Shown here in pieces: positions 23,206 to 31,700 of a stretch of 64,000 nt of DNA. Position numbers and translations under genes: made by a program. Numbering within the stretch: the stretch's first letter is position 1; each line of letters starts with the position of its first letter. The notes under the pieces were generated by a model that saw only the letters and a program-made list of their open reading frames with translations, searched no databases and was not told the origin of the DNA. The stretch is from positions 5,597,501 through 5,661,500 of the forward strand of contig NZ_PEFF01000001.1 in NCBI RefSeq assembly GCF_002754375.1, given 5' to 3'. The DNA comes from Variovorax sp. 54 (GTDB taxonomy: Bacteria; Pseudomonadota; Gammaproteobacteria; Burkholderiales; Burkholderiaceae_C).

Positions 23206-23619
23206 TCACTTCGCGTCGGGCTCGGTGATGAAGCCGATCTTGCGCACGCCGGCCTCACGCGCCTCGGCCATGGCCTTGGCCACGCGCTCGTAGCGCACGG
23301 CCTTGTCGCCGCGGATGTGCAGCTCGGGCTGCGGTTCCTTGGCGGCTTCGGCGGCCAGGCGGTTCGGCAGCTGGCTGTCGTCGATCTTCTCTTCGTTCCA
23401 GTAATAGGAGCCGTCGGCCGTGACGCTGAACAGGATGTTCTGCGGCTTGGGCTGCTCGGGCTCGCTGCTGGCACGGGGCAGGTCGATGTTGACCGCGTGC
23501 TTCATGACCGGCACGGTGATGATGAAGATGATCAGGAGCACCAGCATGACGTCGACGAGCGGCGTCATGTTGATCTCGTTCATCACCTCATCGGGTTCGT
23601 CTTGGGTTCCGAAAGCCAT
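23206..23619 (-). CDS. exbD: Biopolymer transport protein ExbD
   Basis: ExbD, with ExbB and TonB, uses the proton motive force to energise outer-membrane receptors. The 137-residue protein has a cytoplasmic N-terminus and one membrane helix (about 20-40). The conserved NEINMTPLVDVMLVLLIIF holds the essential membrane aspartate. A periplasmic domain with PRASSEPEQPKPQNI and ITEPDAK at the end follows. The start lies nine bases after the exbB stop in the same operon as tonB. Confidence 0.95.
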   Translation of the reverse strand: MAFGTQDEPDEVMNEINMTPLVDVMLVLLIIFIITVPVMKHAVNIDLPRASSEPEQPKPQNILFSVTADGSYYWNEEKIDDSQLPNRLAAEAAKEPQPELHIRGDKAVRYERVAKAMAEAREAGVRKIGFITEPDAK

Positions 23620-23627
23620 GATGCTGC

Positions 23628-24344
<717 letters not shown>

Positions 24345-24366: not shown

Positions 24367-25053
24367 TTAGTTCAGGACGTAGTTGACGGGGGCGTCGTAA
24401 GACATGGCCTGCACCACGCCGTTGACCTTGCCGGGCACGAACCGGCATTTCATGATGTATTCCACGGCCGCCTCGTCGAGGCGATCGAAGCCGCTGGACT
24501 TCTTGACGTCCGCGCTTTTAGGCAGTCCGTCAACGCCCACGAGCACGCGCACGATCACTTTGCCCTGCTCGCCGAGGCGCTTGCTCATGGCCGGGTAAAC
24601 CGGCTTCGGATTTTGTAGATAGTCGGCGTTGCTCGACGGCAATGACACAGCCGGCGGCGCCGGAGGCGACGGCGGCGGTGCGGGAGGGGCTGGCGGCGCG
24701 GGCGGTGCCGGTGGGGCAGGCGGGGGCGGCGGCTCGGTGGTGCCTGCGGGCGCGTTCGGCGCGGGCGTCGGCTTGGGCTCGCGGATGGCCTGCGGGCGCG
24801 GCGGCGGCGGCGCCTTGCTCACCTTGGGTTGCGGCGGCGGAGGAGGCGGGGGCGGCGGGTCGGCCTTGGGTTTTGGCGGCTCGACGAACTGGCTGAGGAT
24901 CTCGACGGGAATCACCACTTCGGCGGCCCGGCGCAGCAGGCCGCTTTGCAGCGCCCACAGCGCGGCGCCGTGAAAGAGGATCACACCGCCGGCAATGACG
25001 ACAGTGCGCGACAGGCCAAGAAAGGAGGGAGGGGGGGCAAAGCGGTCAGACAC
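24367..25053 (-). CDS. tonB: Energy transducer TonB
   Basis: TonB spans the periplasm and couples ExbB/ExbD to outer-membrane receptors. The protein is about 228 residues from the GTG at 25053 (MSDRFAPPPS); a GTG at 25077 would add eight residues. A membrane anchor at about 15-35 (TVVIAGGVILFHGAALWALQ) is followed by a long Pro-rich rod (about 58-140), including nine consecutive prolines and PPAPPAPP repeats. The C-terminal TonB domain contains YPAMSKRLGEQGKVIVRVLV and VEYIMKCRFVPGKVNG. The DNA for the Pro-rich part is strongly strand-asymmetric. Confidence 0.9.
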   Translation of the reverse strand: MSDRFAPPPSFLGLSRTVVIAGGVILFHGAALWALQSGLLRRAAEVVIPVEILSQFVEPPKPKADPPPPPPPPPQPKVSKAPPPPRPQAIREPKPTPAPNAPAGTTEPPPPPAPPAPPAPPAPPAPPPSPPAPPAVSLPSSNADYLQNPKPVYPAMSKRLGEQGKVIVRVLVGVDGLPKSADVKKSSGFDRLDEAAVEYIMKCRFVPGKVNGVVQAMSYDAPVNYVLN

Positions 25054-25160
25054 GATCAACCATTCGAATGCGGGCACTACAAATCGTGCCCCGATTGCAG
25101 CAAAACCGCTACAGAGACGCTACTTGCGAAAAATCCACCAGACAGAGCCGGCGACGAGGA

Positions 25161-25433
25161 TCAGGCTGCCGCCGAGAGCCGAGACGAGTTCCATGCTTTG
25201 CTTTCCTTGATGGAGTTGGCAAGCTGGATCGCTCTCGGCGCCGATTCGCAGTTGAGTGCGGCCACCGGGTGAGAGACGCTGCACTGCGCCACGATGTCGC
25301 GGGCACAACCTTCACACTGGCCACACTGGGTGGCCACGCCGAGTTCGAACTGGACTTCGTCGAAAGTCATGCCCGCGCGCACATGACGTGCGATTTCACG
25401 GTCAGAGACTCGGCGGCAGACGCAAACGATCAT
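25161..25433 (-). CDS. bfd: Bacterioferritin-associated ferredoxin (BFD-like)
   Basis: Bfd is a [2Fe-2S] protein that reduces the haem of bacterioferritin so that stored iron can be released. The 90-residue product has Cys4 and Cys6 in MIVCVCRRVSD and Cys37 and Cys40 in QCGQCEGC, matching the Bfd cluster ligands, plus an extra Cys43. The helical body resembles Bfd, but the C-terminus extends about 20 residues beyond the usual length with no recognisable motif. It lies between piuC and tonB on the same strand. An AT-rich patch upstream (25475-25510) may hold a weak Fur site. Confidence 0.88.
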   Translation of the reverse strand: MIVCVCRRVSDREIARHVRAGMTFDEVQFELGVATQCGQCEGCARDIVAQCSVSHPVAALNCESAPRAIQLANSIKESKAWNSSRLSAAA

Positions 25434-25544
25434 GGCAGTGAAAGCGGCAGTTGGCTGGCTGTTGGATGTGACTCATTATAAATAAGAATCCATCGCATTT
25501 GCAATAACTATGGCTGACATGCGGTCGGAGTTTGCAAGCCGGTG

Positions 25545-26225
25545 TTACACCTCGGCCCAGAGGCGCAGCAGGTTGTGATAGTGGCCGGTGAGCGCCACGG
25601 TTTCCTCGCATTCGCCCAGGCGGGCGCGCAGTTTCTGGATCGTCTGGTCGAGTTCGAACAGCATGCCGCGCTGTGCGTCGTTGCGCACCATGCTCTGCAG
25701 CCAGAAAAATGAGCACACCCGGGCCCCGCGCGTGACCGGGTGCACGCGGTGCAGGCTGCTCGCCGGGTAAAGGATGAGGTCGCCGGCCGGCAGCTTCACT
25801 TCGTGCGAGCCGTAGGTGTCGATCACTTCGAGCTCGCCACCTTCGTAATCTTCCGGATCGCTCAGGAAGAGGGTGCACGACAGGTCGGTGCGCAGCTGCT
25901 GGCTGCTGCCCGGCACGGCGCGCACCGAGCCGTCGACATGCACGCCGTAGTGCTCGCCGCCCTCGTAGCGGTTGAACAGCGGGGGCACGAAACGCGAAGG
26001 CAGCGCCGCCGAGAAGAACAGCGCGTGGCGCGAGAGCGCGGCCAGGATGGTTGCGCCGAGTTCGCGCGAGACGGGTGAAGACTCCGGCAGCTGGCGGTTG
26101 CGCTTCACCTGCGCGCCCTGGTCGCCCACGGTTTCTCGGCCGTCGATCCACTGGGTGGCGTCGAGGGCGGCGCGCATCTCGCGCACCTGGTCGGGGCTGA
26201 GGACGTCGGGAATATGCAGCATCAT
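25545..26225 (-). CDS. piuC: Fe(II)/2-oxoglutarate dioxygenase PiuC (PKHD-type hydroxylase)
   Basis: This is an iron-starvation-linked dioxygenase that usually accompanies siderophore receptors. The 226-residue protein starts [10 protein letters not shown] and is closely similar in length and wording to E. coli YbiX. The iron ligands are His96 and Asp98 (YGVHVDG) and His159 (SSLHRVHPV), with Arg169 (GARV) for 2-oxoglutarate. The N-terminal [20 protein letters not shown] and C-terminal [13 protein letters not shown] are family hallmarks. The frame stays open to 26288, but GGAG spacing and homology favour 26225. It lies 101 bp downstream of the flavoreductase gene. Confidence 0.93.
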
Positions 26226-26326
26226 TTCGAGGAACTCCGGAGAAAGGAATCGCGCCGCGCGCTCACGGCCGGGCCGATGATGCCGCACGGGGAGCGTTGC
26301 GTCGGCGGCGGGCCATCCGGTCCGAT

Positions 26327-27691
26327 TCAGTAGACATCACGCCGGTAGCGTCCGCTGGCGGACAGCTCGGCCCAAAGATCGTCGCCGGCGATCTGTCGCA
26401 GCGCGGCGTCCACGCCCGACGCCATGCCCTGCAGGCTGCCGCAGACATAGACGGCCGCGCCGTCGCGCAGCCAGGCCTGCAGCGTGTCGGCCACCTGCAG
26501 CAGCCGGTGCTGCACGTAGAAGCGCTCGGCCTGGTCGCGCGAGAACACCATGTCGAGCCGCGCGAGCGTGCCGTCGGCCTGCCAGCCTTCGATCTCCTCG
26601 CGGCAAAGGAAGTCGTGGGCGGACTGGCGCTCGCCGAACACCAGCCAGTTGTCTTTCCGGCCGGCGGCGGCGCGCGCGCGCAGATGGGCGCGCAGCCCGG
26701 CCAGCCCGGTGCCGTTGCCGATCAGGATCAGTGGACGGTTCTCGTTGCCCTCGAGCTGGAAGCCGCGGTGCGGCCGCAGGCGCAGCGCGACGGTGTCGCC
26801 GACCGAGAGCGTCGAGGTGAGCAGGCCCGATGCCGCGCCCATGGAACCGTCGGGGTGCTGTTCCTGCCGCACGAGCAACTGCAGTTCGCCATCGGCGGGC
26901 ATGGAGGCGATCGAGTAGTCGCGCGGTCGTGCCGGATCACTCGCGACCGCCACCTGCACCAGGTCGCCCGACGCCCAGTGCGGCAGGGTGCCGGCTGGCG
27001 GTGTCAGGCCGATGTGAAAGACCGGGCCGCCCGTGCTGCCGGCGTTGAGCAGTTCGCGCCGCGTGAGCCGCCAGGGCGCAAAGCTCGCCGGGGCGTCGTC
27101 GGTGTCCTCGGGTGCGTCGCCCCAACGCGAGTGCCAGTCGGCGAGCGCGGCGGGGTCGCTGTTGTCGACCTCGAGGGGGGCGAAGTCGCGCACGGCGCCG
27201 GACGTGTGGAGCCACGCATCGAGTGCGCGGCCGAAGCCGCAGAAGTGGGCGTACTGGCGGTCGCCCAGCGCCAGCACGGCGTAGCGCAGCGAAGGCAACG
27301 CCAGCGGCGTACCCATCACGCGCTCGGCGAACACGCTGGCCCCGTCGGGCGCGTCGCCTTCGCCGTAGGTGCTGGCCACGAAGAGTGCCCGGCGGGCCGA
27401 GGCGAGCGTGGCGCTGTCGAGTGCGTTGAGCGCCATCACGCGCACCGCGGTGCCAGCCGCGCGCAGCCGCCGTGCGGTCTGCCAGGCGATGGTTTCGGCC
27501 TGGCCGGTCTGGCTGGCGAACAGCACGAGGGTGGGCGAGGCTTGCGCGTCGTCACTGGCCGACAGCGCCGCAGCTTCGCGGGCTGCAGTGGCGTGCAGTC
27601 CCCGCTGACGCGCATAGATGCCCAGGCACAGCGCGGCATAGGCCGCGACCGTGGCGCTGGCCCCCAGCGCACGCCACAAGGTCTCGGTCAT
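26327..27691 (-). CDS. Membrane-anchored flavodoxin/sulfite-reductase-alpha-like flavoreductase
   Basis: The 454-residue diflavin reductase has one N-terminal membrane helix (about 5-26). An FMN-binding flavodoxin domain spans about 53-190 ([37 protein letters not shown]). The ferredoxin-reductase half has the FAD motif RDYS at 257-260 and an NAD(P)H region [17 protein letters not shown]. The C-terminus ends in the NADP-type RYRRDVY. It most likely passes electrons from cytosolic NADPH to a membrane partner. Its ATG overlaps the apbE stop (ATGA), and the five upstream-to-here genes form one operon. It lacks the long linker of CysJ. Confidence 0.87.
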
Positions 27692-28701
27692 GCGCCGGCC
27701 TGCGCCTGCCACGCGCGCGTGGCGCGCTCGGTGAGCGATCCGTCGTCGGCGCGGGAGATGAACAAGGCCGCGACGTCGCGCTGCTGCGCAAAGGCCAGGC
27801 CCTCGTCGGGGCCGAGCACGGTCAGCACGGTGGCGAGCGCATCGGCCTGCATGCATTGCGGGTGCAGCACCGTGACGCTGGCCAGTGCATGCGCCACCGG
27901 CTCGCCATCGCGCGGATCGATGGTGTGCGACCAGCTGCGGCCTTCGAGCGCGCGCCGGTGCCAGCGGTCGCCCGAGGTGGCCACGGCCATGTCGGCCAGG
28001 GCGATGCGTTGCGGGAGTGGCATCTCGGTGTCGACCTGCACTTGCCACGGCGCGCCGCCGGGTCGTCGGCCGATGCCGCGCAGCTCGCCGCCGATCTCGA
28101 GCAGCAGGTCGGTGAGGCCGAGTGCGCGCAGCGCGTCGACACCGTGGTCGACTGCGAAGCCTTTGGCGATACCCGAGAGATCGAGCTGCACGCCGCCGGG
28201 TTGCAGCAGCGTGTGATCGGATTCATCGAACGTCAGCCGTTGCCAGCCGACATTCGAGTGGATCACGGCCAGCGCGTCGGGCGAGGGCAGGGTGTTGTCC
28301 TGCGACGCTGCGGGGCCAAAGCCCCAGCGCGCCACCAGTGCGCCGACCGTCGGATCGATCGCACCGCCGCTGGCCTGCGCCCACGCGAGCGCGCACTGCA
28401 TCACCCGCGCAAACTCCGCCGGCAGCGCATGGCGCGAGCCAGCGGGCGCCGCGTTGAAGCGGCTGATGAGGGAGTCGGGCTCCCAATGGCTCATCTGCGC
28501 GATCACGCGCGTGAGCGCGGCTTCGACCGCCTCGCGCATCTGCGCGAGCGGCAGCATCTGCGGGTTGTCGAAGCGCAGCGACCAGGTCGTGCCCATCGTC
28601 TGCCCGCCGAGCTGCTGAAGGCTGGCGGGATCGGCGCGACGGGGGACGGCCGCGTTGGCGTAGCCGCCCACGCGCCAGGTGGTGCTGAACGAAAGGCCCA
28701 A
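27688..28701 (-). CDS. apbE: FAD:protein FMN transferase ApbE
   Basis: ApbE covalently attaches FMN, taken from FAD, to a Thr or Ser of extracytoplasmic proteins. The product is about 337 residues from the TTG at 28701; no clear Shine-Dalgarno is visible, and the true start may be a few codons upstream. Motifs present are GGQTMGTTWSLRFDN (about 32-46), VQLDLSGIAKGFAVDHG (about 175-191), LLLEIGGELRGIGRRPGG and the metal-binding TIDPRDGEP with MQADALATVLTVLG. It lies directly downstream of DUF2271 and DUF4198. The DUF2271 protein carries a matching acceptor motif. Confidence 0.93.
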   Translation of the reverse strand: MGLSFSTTWRVGGYANAAVPRRADPASLQQLGGQTMGTTWSLRFDNPQMLPLAQMREAVEAALTRVIAQMSHWEPDSLISRFNAAPAGSRHALPAEFARVMQCALAWAQASGGAIDPTVGALVARWGFGPAASQDNTLPSPDALAVIHSNVGWQRLTFDESDHTLLQPGGVQLDLSGIAKGFAVDHGVDALRALGLTDLLLEIGGELRGIGRRPGGAPWQVQVDTEMPLPQRIALADMAVATSGDRWHRRALEGRSWSHTIDPRDGEPVAHALASVTVLHPQCMQADALATVLTVLGPDEGLAFAQQRDVAALFISRADDGSLTERATRAWQAQAGA

Positions 28702-28733
28702 GGGAGCGGGTGCTGCCGGTACAGGCGGCAGGG

Positions 28734-29543
28734 TCAGGGCATCACTTCCAGGGTGGCCGCGTAGCTCAGGCGGCGTTCCTTGGCTTGCGGCACGGTGGTC
28801 TTGCTGTCCTTGGTGCTGGCGTCGAGCCAGTACATGCCGGCGCTCGGCCAGGTCACGCTGAACTGGCCCTTGTCGTCGGTCTTGAGCTTGAGCTCTTCGA
28901 GCTTGTCGCGGTACTGGGTGTTGCCGGCGGTCACCGTCACTTCGAGGTCCTTGGCGGGCTTGCCGTCCAGGTGCAGCGTGAAGGTGGCCTTCTCGCCCTT
29001 GGCGAGGTCGGTCGGGCTGCCGGCCGAGATCAGTTCCAGGCCCTGGCCGATGGGCTTGAGCGCCGAGGGCTTGCCGACGGTCACGAAGGTCTCGATGCGG
29101 CCGGCCGATTGCGTGATCGTCACGTCCTGCGCGTCGGCCGGGATTTCCTTGCCGATGGTCTCGGCGGTGCCGCGGGCGCGCTTGTTCTGGCCCGTGGCCT
29201 TGTCCTTCCAGGCGGCGAACGCGCCGTTGTTGACCACCGCGATGCGGTACGTGCCCGGCTGTGCGACGTTCACGTCGAACACGTTGCGCAGCTTGAGCTT
29301 GGCTTCGGATTCGGGCTTCACTGCGCTGCCGTCGGGGGCGGTGATCTGCAGGCCCTCCAGGCGCAGCGGCGCGTGGTTGGCAACGAACAGGTCGTTCGAC
29401 ACGGCGGCGTCGACGCTCACGGTGTCGGCCTTCGACAGTACGGTGGTCGAGGGCAGCAGCCAGGCGTTGTGCGCCTGGGTCACGGAAGCAACGGCCGAAA
29501 GGGCGAGGGCGAGGCCGGCGGCGCGCAGGGTGAAGCGGGTCAT
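28734..29543 (-). CDS. DUF4198 periplasmic protein
   Basis: The 269-residue secreted protein has a signal peptide (1-24, ending SVTQA). The predicted mature N-terminus begins HNAWLLPS; a His-x-x-Trp start is common in this family and could bind metal through the free amino group, which is inference. Two beta-rich Ig-like halves follow, with LRNVFDVNVAQPGTYRIAVVN (about 87-107) and a C-terminal DDKGQFSVTWPSAGMYWLDAS. The biochemical function of DUF4198 is not established. It is the third gene of the PepSY-DUF2271-DUF4198-apbE-reductase operon. Confidence 0.87.
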   Translation of the reverse strand: MTRFTLRAAGLALALSAVASVTQAHNAWLLPSTTVLSKADTVSVDAAVSNDLFVANHAPLRLEGLQITAPDGSAVKPESEAKLKLRNVFDVNVAQPGTYRIAVVNNGAFAAWKDKATGQNKRARGTAETIGKEIPADAQDVTITQSAGRIETFVTVGKPSALKPIGQGLELISAGSPTDLAKGEKATFTLHLDGKPAKDLEVTVTAGNTQYRDKLEELKLKTDDKGQFSVTWPSAGMYWLDASTKDSKTTVPQAKERRLSYAATLEVMP

Positions 29544-29589
29544 GGGGGTCCTTGGAATGAGAGGGCAGGCGGGTGTGTGGAGGCGATGT

Positions 29590-30123
29590 TCAGGGCTTGA
29601 GTTCGAGCTTGATCTCGCCGAGCTCTTCCTTGCCGGCCACGACCGGTTGCGCAGCCGCGGTGGGCGGCCACTGGAACGGGATGGTCACGACTTCGCGGCC
29701 GCCGACTTCACGGGCGGCTTCCACCACCAGTTTGTAGGCGCCGGGGGCGAGCTTCGGCATGGCGCCCGAGCCTTCGGTGAAGCTCAGCTGGTGCTTGCCT
29801 GCGGGCTTGGAGGCGCCGGTCACGCCGTCGACCGGCACGGCCAGTTCACGGCCGCCGCGGCGCCACCACTGGCGCATGTCCTTGAGCCACTTGGTGCCTT
29901 CGCCTTCGGGGTTGTTGGTCTTGGTGCGCACGTCGTACCAGACGGCCAGCGTGCCGGCCATCGTGCTGTCGGCGCGCTCGATCCAGGTCGCCACGTAGGG
30001 ACGGTGGTACTCCGACACGTTGAGCCGGGGGATCTCGATGTTGACCGACAGGCCGGCGGCAATGGCCGGAGCCGCGAACAGCGCTGACATGGCGATCGGT
30101 GCGAGCGAGTAGCGAAGGTGCAC
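29590..30123 (-). CDS. DUF2271 periplasmic protein with flavinylation motif
   Basis: The 177-residue exported protein starts at GTG 30123 behind AGGAAAAGAGG. Its signal peptide (about 1-22) ends APAIAA. A single DUF2271 domain contains YVATWIERADSTMAGTLAVWYD and a tryptophan-rich KDMRQWWRRGGR. At residues 99-105 lies DGVTGAS (DNA 29809-29829), which fits the ApbE target consensus D-x-x-S/T-G-A-T/S. Ser105 is the predicted FMN attachment point. I read it as a periplasmic flavin carrier fed by the PepSY membrane protein and modified by the ApbE two genes downstream; this is inference. Confidence 0.87.
   Translation of the reverse strand: MHLRYSLAPIAMSALFAAPAIAAGLSVNIEIPRLNVSEYHRPYVATWIERADSTMAGTLAVWYDVRTKTNNPEGEGTKWLKDMRQWWRRGGRELAVPVDGVTGASKPAGKHQLSFTEGSGAMPKLAPGAYKLVVEAAREVGGREVVTIPFQWPPTAAAQPVVAGKEELGEIKLELKP
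29809..29829 (-). other. Predicted ApbE flavinylation site in the DUF2271 protein
   Basis: The codons encode DGVTGAS. NqrC/RnfG-type substrates share D-x-x-S/T-G-A-T/S with FMN on the last residue, here Ser105. Confidence 0.7.
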
Positions 30124-30185
30124 GGGAAACCTCTTTTCCTGAATCAACAAAAACAACGTGCCGACTGATCCAGCTATCGAATCGG

Positions 30186-30833
30186 TCAGTGAATGAACAG
30201 CAGCGCGAGCAGCACGGGCACCACCAGCCCCATGCCCACCATGGGCCAAGTGAAGGGGCGGTTGCCTGCATGCATCTTGAGAATGAACAGCCCGGTGACC
30301 GAGAAGACCAGCGTGGCGGCCGCGAAGATGTCGATGAACCAGCTCCAGGCCGTGCCGGTGTTGCGGCCCTTGTGCAGGTCGTTGAAATAGGAGAGCCAGC
30401 CTCGGTCGGTGCGCTCGTATTCGACCTCGCCTTCAGGCAGGCTCAGGCGCAGCCAGGCGTCGCCGCCGGGGCGAGGGAGCGAGAGGTAGATTTCGTCGTC
30501 GGACCACTCGGCCTCGCGGGCGGCGGTGTCGATGTCCCACTGCTTGCGCAGCCAGGCTTGCAGGTCTGCGGGGAGCGGGGCCTTGCCCTGCTGGGCCTTG
30601 GCGGCCGGCAGCTGTTGTTCGAGGCGGGCGCGCAGCGCGTCGTCGACGGTGCCGTTGTGCGTGGTGACCACCGGCTTGGCCTCGATCTGGCCCGCGTGGT
30701 TGAGCGTGAAGCCCGTGACGCTGAACAGAATCATCCCGACAAGACAGATGGCAGAACTGACCCAATGCCACTCGTGGAGGGTCTTGAGCCAATAGGCGCG
30801 GCGGCGGTTGTCGGAACGGGCGGGGGCAGTCAT
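30186..30833 (-). CDS. PepSY-associated transmembrane protein, putative haem/electron conduit
   Basis: The 215-residue inner-membrane protein has helices at about 24-45, 163-185 and 193-214 and a periplasmic PepSY-like region (about 50-150) between the first and second. Histidines 20 and 23 (LHEWHW), 46 (LNHAGQ), 154 (NDLHKG) and 188 (KMHAGN) flank the helices, as expected for b-type haem ligation in PepSY_TM proteins. It leads the operon and has a Fur-box-like operator about 25 bp upstream. Likely role: carrying electrons from the cytoplasmic flavoreductase to the flavinylated DUF2271 protein. Related Pseudomonas proteins such as FpvG take part in ferri-siderophore reduction. Confidence 0.87.
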   Translation of the reverse strand: MTAPARSDNRRRAYWLKTLHEWHWVSSAICLVGMILFSVTGFTLNHAGQIEAKPVVTTHNGTVDDALRARLEQQLPAAKAQQGKAPLPADLQAWLRKQWDIDTAAREAEWSDDEIYLSLPRPGGDAWLRLSLPEGEVEYERTDRGWLSYFNDLHKGRNTGTAWSWFIDIFAAATLVFSVTGLFILKMHAGNRPFTWPMVGMGLVVPVLLALLFIH

Positions 30834-30858
30834 CGAAAGCGCGAATTGTATTCGCGCA

Positions 30859-30877
30859 GATGAGAATGACTGCTATT
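30859..30877 (-). promoter_or_regulatory. Fur-box-like operator before the PepSY operon
   Basis: On the minus strand the site reads AATAGCAGTCATTCTCATC. It matches 14 of 19 positions of the Fur-type sequence AATGATAATCATTCTCATT, with an intact right half. It lies 25-45 bp before the ATG of the PepSY gene. Confidence 0.62.
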
Positions 30878-30904
30878 CAGTGAGGATAAAGTTAAGTAAA
30901 GAGC

Positions 30905-30932
30905 AATAAAAAACGGGACCGAAGCCCCGTTT
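30905..30932 (-). terminator. Terminator after bfr
   Basis: On the minus strand the stem AAACGGG/CCCGTTT with a short loop is followed by TTTTATT. It isolates bfr from the Fur-controlled operon downstream. Confidence 0.8.
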
Positions 30933-30964
30933 GTTTGCAATGCCGTGGCGGCGCTGCGTTGTGC

Positions 30965-31441
30965 TTACTCGAGCTCGCCCACCTGCAACTGCAGGTAGTT
31001 CTGCAGGCCGACGCGGTCGATCAGGTCGATCTGCGTCTCGAGGAAGTCGATGTGCTCCTCGGTGTCGTCCAGGATCTCTTGCAGCAGGTCGCGCGAGACA
31101 TAGTCGCGCACCGATTCGCAATGCGCGATGCCGTCCTTGATGGTCGCTTGCGCGCCGGTTTCGGCGCCGAGGTCGCAGCGCAGCAGCTCGGGCACGTCTT
31201 CGCCGATGTTCAGCTTGCCCAGGTCCTGCAGGTTGGGCAGGCCGTCGAGCATGAAGATGCGGTCCATGAGCTTGTCGGCGTGCTTCATCTCGCCGATGGA
31301 TTCTTCGTATTCCTTCTTTGCCAGCTTGTCCAGGCCCCAGTGCTTGAGCATGCGGTAGTGGAGGAAGTACTGGTTGATCGCAGTCAGCTCGTTCTTGAGC
31401 TGCGCCTGCAGGTGTTCGATGACTTTGGGGTCGCCCTTCAT
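30965..31441 (-). CDS. bfr: Bacterioferritin
   Basis: This is a 24-mer iron-storage protein with a dinuclear ferroxidase site and an inter-subunit haem. The 158-residue product starts [12 protein letters not shown]. Ferroxidase ligands Glu18, Glu51 and His54 lie in [10 protein letters not shown] and IGEMKHADK, and Met52 is the haem ligand, so it is of the haem-binding type. The later Glu and Glu-x2-His ligands are in [10 protein letters not shown] and DTEEHIDF. The ATG at 31441 is preferred over an upstream one at 31489 by family alignment. The nearby bfd gene supplies its reductase partner. Confidence 0.95.
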
Positions 31442-31613
31442 GATTCTTTTCCTTGTTCTGAAAGCGGTGATTGTCGGAGGGGCGAACACGCACTTGCAAG
31501 CAAACCCATGCTGCGCCGGTCTGCATGCGTGTGATGGTGATACACGTTCGTATTGACCTGGCGCAAGGCGATGCGCGAGGCGATGGCAAACATAGGGGGT
31601 TCCAATACTTTCA

Positions 31614-31628
31614 ATAGTTGATATCTAT
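31614..31628 (+). promoter_or_regulatory. OxyR-type site upstream of ahpC
   Basis: ATAGTTGATATCTAT is an exact match to the OxyR element ATAGnTnnnAnCTAT. It is 72 bp before the ahpC start and is followed by a less perfect AT-rich half (to about 31651). Peroxide induction of ahpC is expected. The site is also 173 bp from the bfr start on the other strand. Confidence 0.72.
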
Positions 31629-31700
31629 CAAAAACTACGTATTGGTAGTTATACTCATGGCTCGCACTTTTCTTTCCAACCGCAGCATCCAAGGAATCAC

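Follow-up and report, generated by a model that had tools for sequence, protein, structure and literature searches.

The data presented here suggest a model for a five-gene operon on the minus strand of the window (the whole 64,000-nucleotide stretch analysed, from the soil bacterium Variovorax sp. 54 and part of a complete 6.64 Mb genome). This operon, at 26327-30833 and in the order PepSY, DUF2271, DUF4198, apbE and diflavin reductase, probably constitutes a Fur-controlled system through which iron is assimilated reductively in the periplasm, ferric chelates being reduced for the uptake of Fe(II). In the model, electrons from reduced nicotinamide adenine dinucleotide phosphate (NADPH) would enter a membrane-anchored diflavin reductase at the cytoplasmic face, cross PepSY by way of two haems, one towards its cytoplasmic side (H20/H23 with H188) and the next towards its periplasmic side (H46, H154, H215), and reach flavin mononucleotide (FMN) on Ser105 of DUF2271, which may in turn reduce periplasmic ferric chelates. 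The Fe(II) thereby freed could be held by an N-terminal His1/His33 site of DUF4198 and handed to inner-membrane importers, for which FeoB and an FTR1 protein, both encoded elsewhere in the genome, are candidates. ApbE would attach FMN to DUF2271, probably in the cytoplasm prior to export, because it carries no visible export signal. The more specific version, in which cytoplasmic ApbE flavinylates DUF2271 before a Sec-type export and DUF4198 is an N-terminal-His carrier for the released Fe(II), is advanced only tentatively. Three elements of the model have been shown in other species, namely flavinylation of a DUF2271, an operon of this kind bound by Fur and responsive to iron, and metal binding by a DUF4198. 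The model joins two published lines, one on PepSY operons with flavinylated proteins and one on DUF4198 metal binding, predicts that the DUF4198 of the window handles Fe(II) through His1 and His33, and raises the question of whether a protein carrying covalent FMN can be exported or whether ApbE is periplasmic without a known signal. What is new is modest: DUF4198 as a bridge between the two literatures, the side of the membrane on which ApbE would lie, a looser target motif and the loss of a receptor.

Gene content and published class

The sequence-only reading of this DNA had described five same-strand genes with small gaps or overlaps, and both coordinates and Pfam families hold. All five genes lie above the Pfam cut-off, and the intergenic gaps are, in order, 62, 46 and 32 nucleotides (nt), followed by a 4-nt overlap.

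30186..30833, minus strand: PepSY_TM_like_2 membrane protein (Pfam PF16357, 283 bits; three predicted transmembrane helices)
29590..30123, minus strand: DUF2271, exported, presumed FMN carrier (Pfam PF10029, 166 bits; GTG start; signal-peptide-like score 2.03)
28734..29543, minus strand: DUF4198 periplasmic protein, predicted mature N-terminus H25 (Pfam PF10670, 174 bits; AlphaFold2 (AF2) predicted local distance difference test (pLDDT) 93)
27688..28701, minus strand: ApbE FMN transferase (Pfam PF02424, 258 bits; TTG start; export-signal score 0.66)
26327..27691, minus strand: N-anchored CysJ-like diflavin reductase (Pfam Flavodoxin_1 and NAD_binding_1)

Variovorax boronicumulans NBRC 103145 is the closest relative that bears a name, its DUF2271 being 99% identical. 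Among the best 80 of 534 related loci, the complete five-gene set is present in 70, and the exact gene order of the window, taken by open reading frame (ORF) start, in 63, with at least one exception (L089) being a product of stop-to-stop ORF starts. The 10 incomplete loci are L060, L082, L107, L110 and L111, which end at a contig edge, L095 and L102, where ApbE is absent from the stretch and encoded elsewhere in both genomes, and L118, L127 and L129, where the reductase is the missing gene.

The operon belongs to a published, well-conserved class, the "PepSY-like" flavinylation system, for which 3220 clusters have been described, 2833 with DUF2271 and 1500 with DUF4198, and for which a link to iron has been proposed (Meheust et al., 2021; PMC8238504). 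That system is defined by a PF03929 or PF16357 protein no more than five genes from ApbE, DUF2271 or FMN_bind (PMC8238504), and in the window a PF16357 protein adjoins PF10029 and PF02424 genes. As a system nothing separates the two, which have PepSY, ApbE and DUF2271, often with DUF4198, in common; the window adds a signal-less ApbE, a motif loose at GA, the N-terminal His of DUF4198 and a nearby Fiu/PiuA-PiuC pair. Operons of this type occur widely among Proteobacteria. The sequence-only reading had correctly taken the class as not wholly new, and the literature reaches further than that reading did. In Caulobacter crescentus the same five genes stand in the same order (CC_3059-3063 / CCNA_03155-03159; PMC3751524, PMC11870441); their promoter is reported to be bound by Fur, with expression rising in iron limitation (PMC3751524), and the genes to matter for fitness in ethylenediaminetetraacetic acid (EDTA) (PMC11870441).

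DUF2271 and its pairing with ApbE

The ApbE target motif previously noticed in DUF2271 stands at residues 99-105, so that the numbering of its serine as S105 is correct.

29809..29829, minus strand: ApbE target motif DGVTGAS, residues 99-105, S105 being the presumed FMN site (D, G, S/T at -3 and S/T at 0 in 80/80)

Over the 80 loci the successive columns read D 80, G 80, V/I/L 80 and S 48 / T 32, followed by G 66 / S 11 / Q 3, A 62 / P 18 and T 79 / S 1; the conserved core is thus D-G-x-[ST]-x-x-[ST], and GA is not conserved. The final Ser of the window is common only to L057, and ApbE is kept in all 18 P-type loci, Caulobacter segnis among them. The TGAS of the window agrees with the published [S/T]GA[S/T] motif, at which the DUF2271 of A. 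ursilacus is reported to be flavinylated (PMC8238504), although GA varies among the 80 relatives. Conservation of DGVTGAS itself, the lack of which the sequence-only reading had named among its refuting conditions, was not found (the last residue is T in 79/80, and P occurs in 18/80), whereas the co-occurrence of apbE, whose lack was named alongside it, was found in 44/44 genomes with DUF2271 of a family sample. A sequence search of PDB with DUF2271 gave no match. Export by the twin-arginine (Tat) route was considered for DUF2271 and dropped, as most N-termini appeared by eye to be without an SRRxFLK-like motif. The bacterial family also contains a further DUF2271 clade, divergent from this one (L050, L053-L056), in which TGAS or SGAS motifs are again present.

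The genome encodes one ApbE and one DUF2271, and no FMN_bind protein was found in it; the two therefore look like a dedicated pair. A motif scan of six neighbouring proteins picked out only the reductase, with a single loose resemblance to the motif. In the family sample of 200 genomes, DUF2271 occurs in 44 and ApbE in 117, which include all 44; ApbE is thus found in 44/44 genomes with DUF2271 against 73/156 without (Fisher p 8e-13, not corrected for kinship), and it lies within 5 kb on the same strand at 41 of 45 DUF2271 places. In a phylum sample DUF2271 was found in 70 of 398 genomes.

Location of ApbE

Export signals were scored by simple hydrophobicity over all in-frame starts within 70 codons (cut-off 1.7; not SignalP). 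By this score 71/80 DUF2271, 79/80 DUF4198 and 69/73 reductase sequences pass, as do 15/75 ApbEs, and among negative controls 1/37 PiuC and 0/12 bacterioferritin (Bfr) sequences; the nine DUF2271 below the cut-off score 1.58-1.68. Within the window, DUF4198 reaches 2.16 and the reductase 2.01, beside 2.03 for DUF2271 and 0.66 for ApbE, and the export signal that the PepSY-like system requires on at least one target gene is found on the substrate DUF2271 only. Clear ApbE signals (score at least 2.2) occur in 6/75 (L083, L087, L092, L109, L125, L127), the other nine passing sequences being eight of an RVLIP kind and L104. In the ApbE tree (76 rows), whose bootstrap values had not settled, the six signal-bearing rows cluster and need at least three changes, a number as low being reached in 0/500 shuffles. 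Where the operon ApbE has been lost, in L095, the ApbE elsewhere in the genome has a lipoprotein-like start.

A short RVLIP-like N-terminal motif occurs in 26/75 ApbEs (L077-L136). It was considered as a weak signal and set aside; 8/26 pass 1.7, and the window ApbE does not. The Caulobacter segnis ApbE, of the RVLIP kind, scores 1.81, and unlike that of the window its export appears ambiguous.

These scores suggest that the operon ApbE lies on an unexpected side of the membrane. A review describes a cytosolic ApbE whose substrate is soluble (PMC12052999); the export-signal question is not discussed in the available portions of PMC8238504, and in the accessible texts on cytosolic or cytoplasmic ApbE no signal-less enzyme was found that acts on an exported protein. 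The earlier scheme of outward electron flow keeps its anatomy, its Fur link and its ApbE-DUF2271 pairing, but it left the signal-less operon ApbE unexplained.

PepSY protein and reductase

The PepSY protein was modelled as a monomer by AF2 (pLDDT 84.6, predicted template modelling score (pTM) 0.61). Among 79 relatives H23, H154 and H215 are conserved in all, H188 in 77, H20 in 72 and H46 in 70. If the N-terminus is inside and there are three helices, as read from helix order, the cytoplasmic face would carry H20, H23 and H188, and the periplasmic one H46, H154 and H215, a pattern that would fit two haems as in FoxB, the published fold of which has two PepSY domains and two haems. The FoxB/HiuB/PiuB reductases share with the window protein His near both membrane faces and adjoining iron receptors (PMC13038864, PMC12424826, PMC9426570); unlike them, the window protein has three transmembrane helices and one small periplasmic domain, and no FoxB match was found for it. 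H215 is the final residue of the window PepSY (30186-30188), in a column that is His in 79/79 relatives.

The diflavin reductase begins with a hydrophobic segment, followed by a flavodoxin domain and a C-terminal part resembling CysJ; in sequence, the PDB entries that match it best are sulfite reductase flavoproteins (SiR-FP; E 1.2e-44). Judged by length and Pfam, it appears to be without the helical connecting domain of full CysJ or P450 reductase. Its flavin-motif residues R257, Y259 and S260 are conserved in 72/73.

DUF4198 as a candidate metal protein

The sequence-only reading had left the role of DUF4198 undefined, which can no longer be said because a homologue, IsDUF4198 of Ideonella sakaiensis (PDB 9GCB), is a solved nickel-binding protein with a dissociation constant of 18 nM (PMC12537917). 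The AF2 model of the window protein matches solved metal-binding proteins, namely Ni-DUF4198 (9GCB), whose two-domain beta-sandwich fold is present in it, and "Zcp"; a metal site in DUF4198 is therefore likely, and the metal could perhaps be Fe(II). Two conserved histidines are the candidate ligands, the first following an AxA-like site at which cleavage is predicted.

29469..29471, minus strand: H25 codon, predicted mature His1 of DUF4198 (His in 80/80; A at -1 in 79/80)
29373..29375, minus strand: H57 codon, mature His33 of DUF4198 (His in 79/80)

By sequence, a PDB search returned only Zcp, at modest E. The main text of PMC12537917 makes no mention of PepSY, ApbE, DUF2271 or iron. DUF4198 paralogues with His after the AxA site also stand beside receptor-like genes at G000:C1:5327238-5327819 (L144) and G000:C1:2689026-2689232 (L145).

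Promoter

A Fur-box-like site had been claimed ahead of the operon. The claim is supported for the set of relatives, where matches exceed chance and the footprint aligns, but the window site by itself is weak.

30862..30880, minus strand: Fur-box-like site CTGAATAGCAGTCATTCTC, overlapping the -35 region (consensus match and aligned footprint in Variovorax relatives)
30845..30850, minus strand: -10-like TACAAT (read from sequence; TAnAAT aligned in relatives)

The site lies 28 nt 5' of the PepSY ATG and has 11/19 consensus matches, a number reached by 23% of 100 shuffles; with a Fur matrix trained on 30 sites from other genera it scores 9.4, which 4% of 200 shuffles reach. At least 13/19 matches are found in 28 of 80 upstream regions (79 loci and the window), where shuffles predict about 0.8. 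For Variovorax/Pseudacidovorax there are 16 upstream regions, that of the window among them and none for L060; in these no more than 4% of shuffles reach the score of the best site, and their alignment shows the Fur box followed by a TAnAAT -10. The Pseudomonas aeruginosa piuA and piuC genes are reported to have Fur boxes (PMC9426570). The -10-like TACAAT lies 11 nt before the ATG, which would give a leader of about 5 nt. At 30831-30850, an mRNA leader of about 5 nt would leave no ribosome-binding site. A terminator scan placed a terminator-like site at 30911-30932, between the operon and the upstream bacterioferritin gene.

Alternative explanations

Several observations weigh against reductive iron assimilation or against particular steps of it. 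Foldseek with the PepSY model gave no PDB match at E <= 0.001, FoxB was not among the 50 matches listed in a second fold search, and a sequence-profile search of PDB with PepSY found nothing, FoxB included, although for the fold searches a monomer model with pTM 0.61 may be a poor query. From the window DUF4198, 9GCB was not found by sequence at E <= 10; in IsDUF4198 the second ligand is His18, as opposed to the conserved His33 here, nickel is the best stabiliser by thermal shift and the authors link the protein to nickel, and FeCl2 was among the metals screened, with no Fe result found in the available text (PMC12537917). No reductase homologue was found in the stretches of L118, L127 and L129 (3/80 loci), the conservation counts favour near relatives because they come from the closest 80 among 534 loci, and a signal-less ApbE does not fit the usual periplasmic scheme. 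The chain might be thought to serve copper or nickel, with DUF4198 as a Ni/Cu/Zn carrier and the reductase acting on that metal, since among the solved relatives of DUF4198 9GCB binds Ni and the Zcp entries, known from PDB titles only, bind Cu, Zn or Co, and since another PepSY_TM protein, CrpH, serves copper supply (PMC13038864). However, the promoter footprint is of Fur type, iron genes lie on both sides of the operon, the Caulobacter five-gene operon responds to iron and affects fitness in EDTA, and CrpH is reported to form a separate PepSY_TM cluster, the window PepSY matching PF16357 best. A chain for copper or nickel thus appears unlikely, and of the two targets entertained in the sequence-only reading iron is the better supported and copper less so.

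It could also be supposed that the main task of PepSY is to carry ferric siderophores through the inner membrane as a permease, the flavin parts merely supporting it; such a permease role has been predicted for Alteromonas PepSY proteins beside iron-regulated receptors (PMC7190382). Three transmembrane helices with a small periplasmic domain and six conserved His at both faces fit a haem conduit, and FoxB-type proteins are now read as reductases in the reports available, so that a permease seems highly improbable. The low export score of ApbE (0.66, against 2.03 for DUF2271 and 2.16 for DUF4198) invites the further suggestion that ApbE remains cytoplasmic and serves some unrecognised substrate there, and that DUF2271 works without covalent FMN. 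Such a separation of the two proteins is regarded as quite improbable given the motif core in 80/80, ApbE in 44/44 DUF2271 genomes of the family, a genome without an FMN_bind protein or a second DUF2271, and a neighbour scan that gave only the one loose match in the reductase. Reductive iron assimilation, with FMN on DUF2271, is preferred.

Iron-gene neighbourhood and receptor loss

The genes flanking the operon are as follows.

30965..31489, minus strand: bacterioferritin, upstream gene (Pfam PF00210)
25545..26288, minus strand: PiuC/CciO-type 2-oxoglutarate-Fe(II) dioxygenase (Pfam; PDB PiuC E 5e-82; true start probably ATG at 26228)
25161..25433, minus strand: bacterioferritin-associated ferredoxin (BFD-like, bfd; Pfam PF04324)
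24367..25077, minus strand: TonB (Pfam PF03544)
23628..24344, minus strand: ExbB (Pfam PF01618)
23206..23619, minus strand: ExbD-like (named from its translation and its place after ExbB)
26239..26317, minus strand: stretch replacing the receptor region (L057 11785 joins 14488 in the comparison)

An Rfam scan of 25000-31700 gave no match. Large reverse-strand ORFs that cluster across loci were scanned with Pfam in L063, L126, L122 and L057 and rejected as genes; they are read as shadow ORFs because they had no match where scanned.

The window piuC, of the cciO type, lies directly behind the operon, whereas in Caulobacter cciT-cciO are reported at the distant CCNA_00027/28. Between reductase and piuC the window has about 80 nt, against about 2.7 kb with a TonB-dependent receptor in the nearest relative (L057:11786-14487), a receptor that matches Fiu at 6.9e-206. 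A receptor-like ORF is present in 45/80 loci and in 36 of the 37 having piuC; it lies directly upstream of piuC in 33/37, and between reductase and piuC in 14 loci. Among the 16 Variovorax/Pseudacidovorax loci, piuC falls within the stretch in 13, and in 12 of these the receptor stands between reductase and piuC, the exception being L066, which has none. The best remaining receptor in the window genome is 44% identical, and by these comparisons a Fiu/PiuA-type receptor has been lost from between its reductase and piuC genes; the P. aeruginosa PiuA is reported to transport Fe(III)-catechols (PMC9426570).

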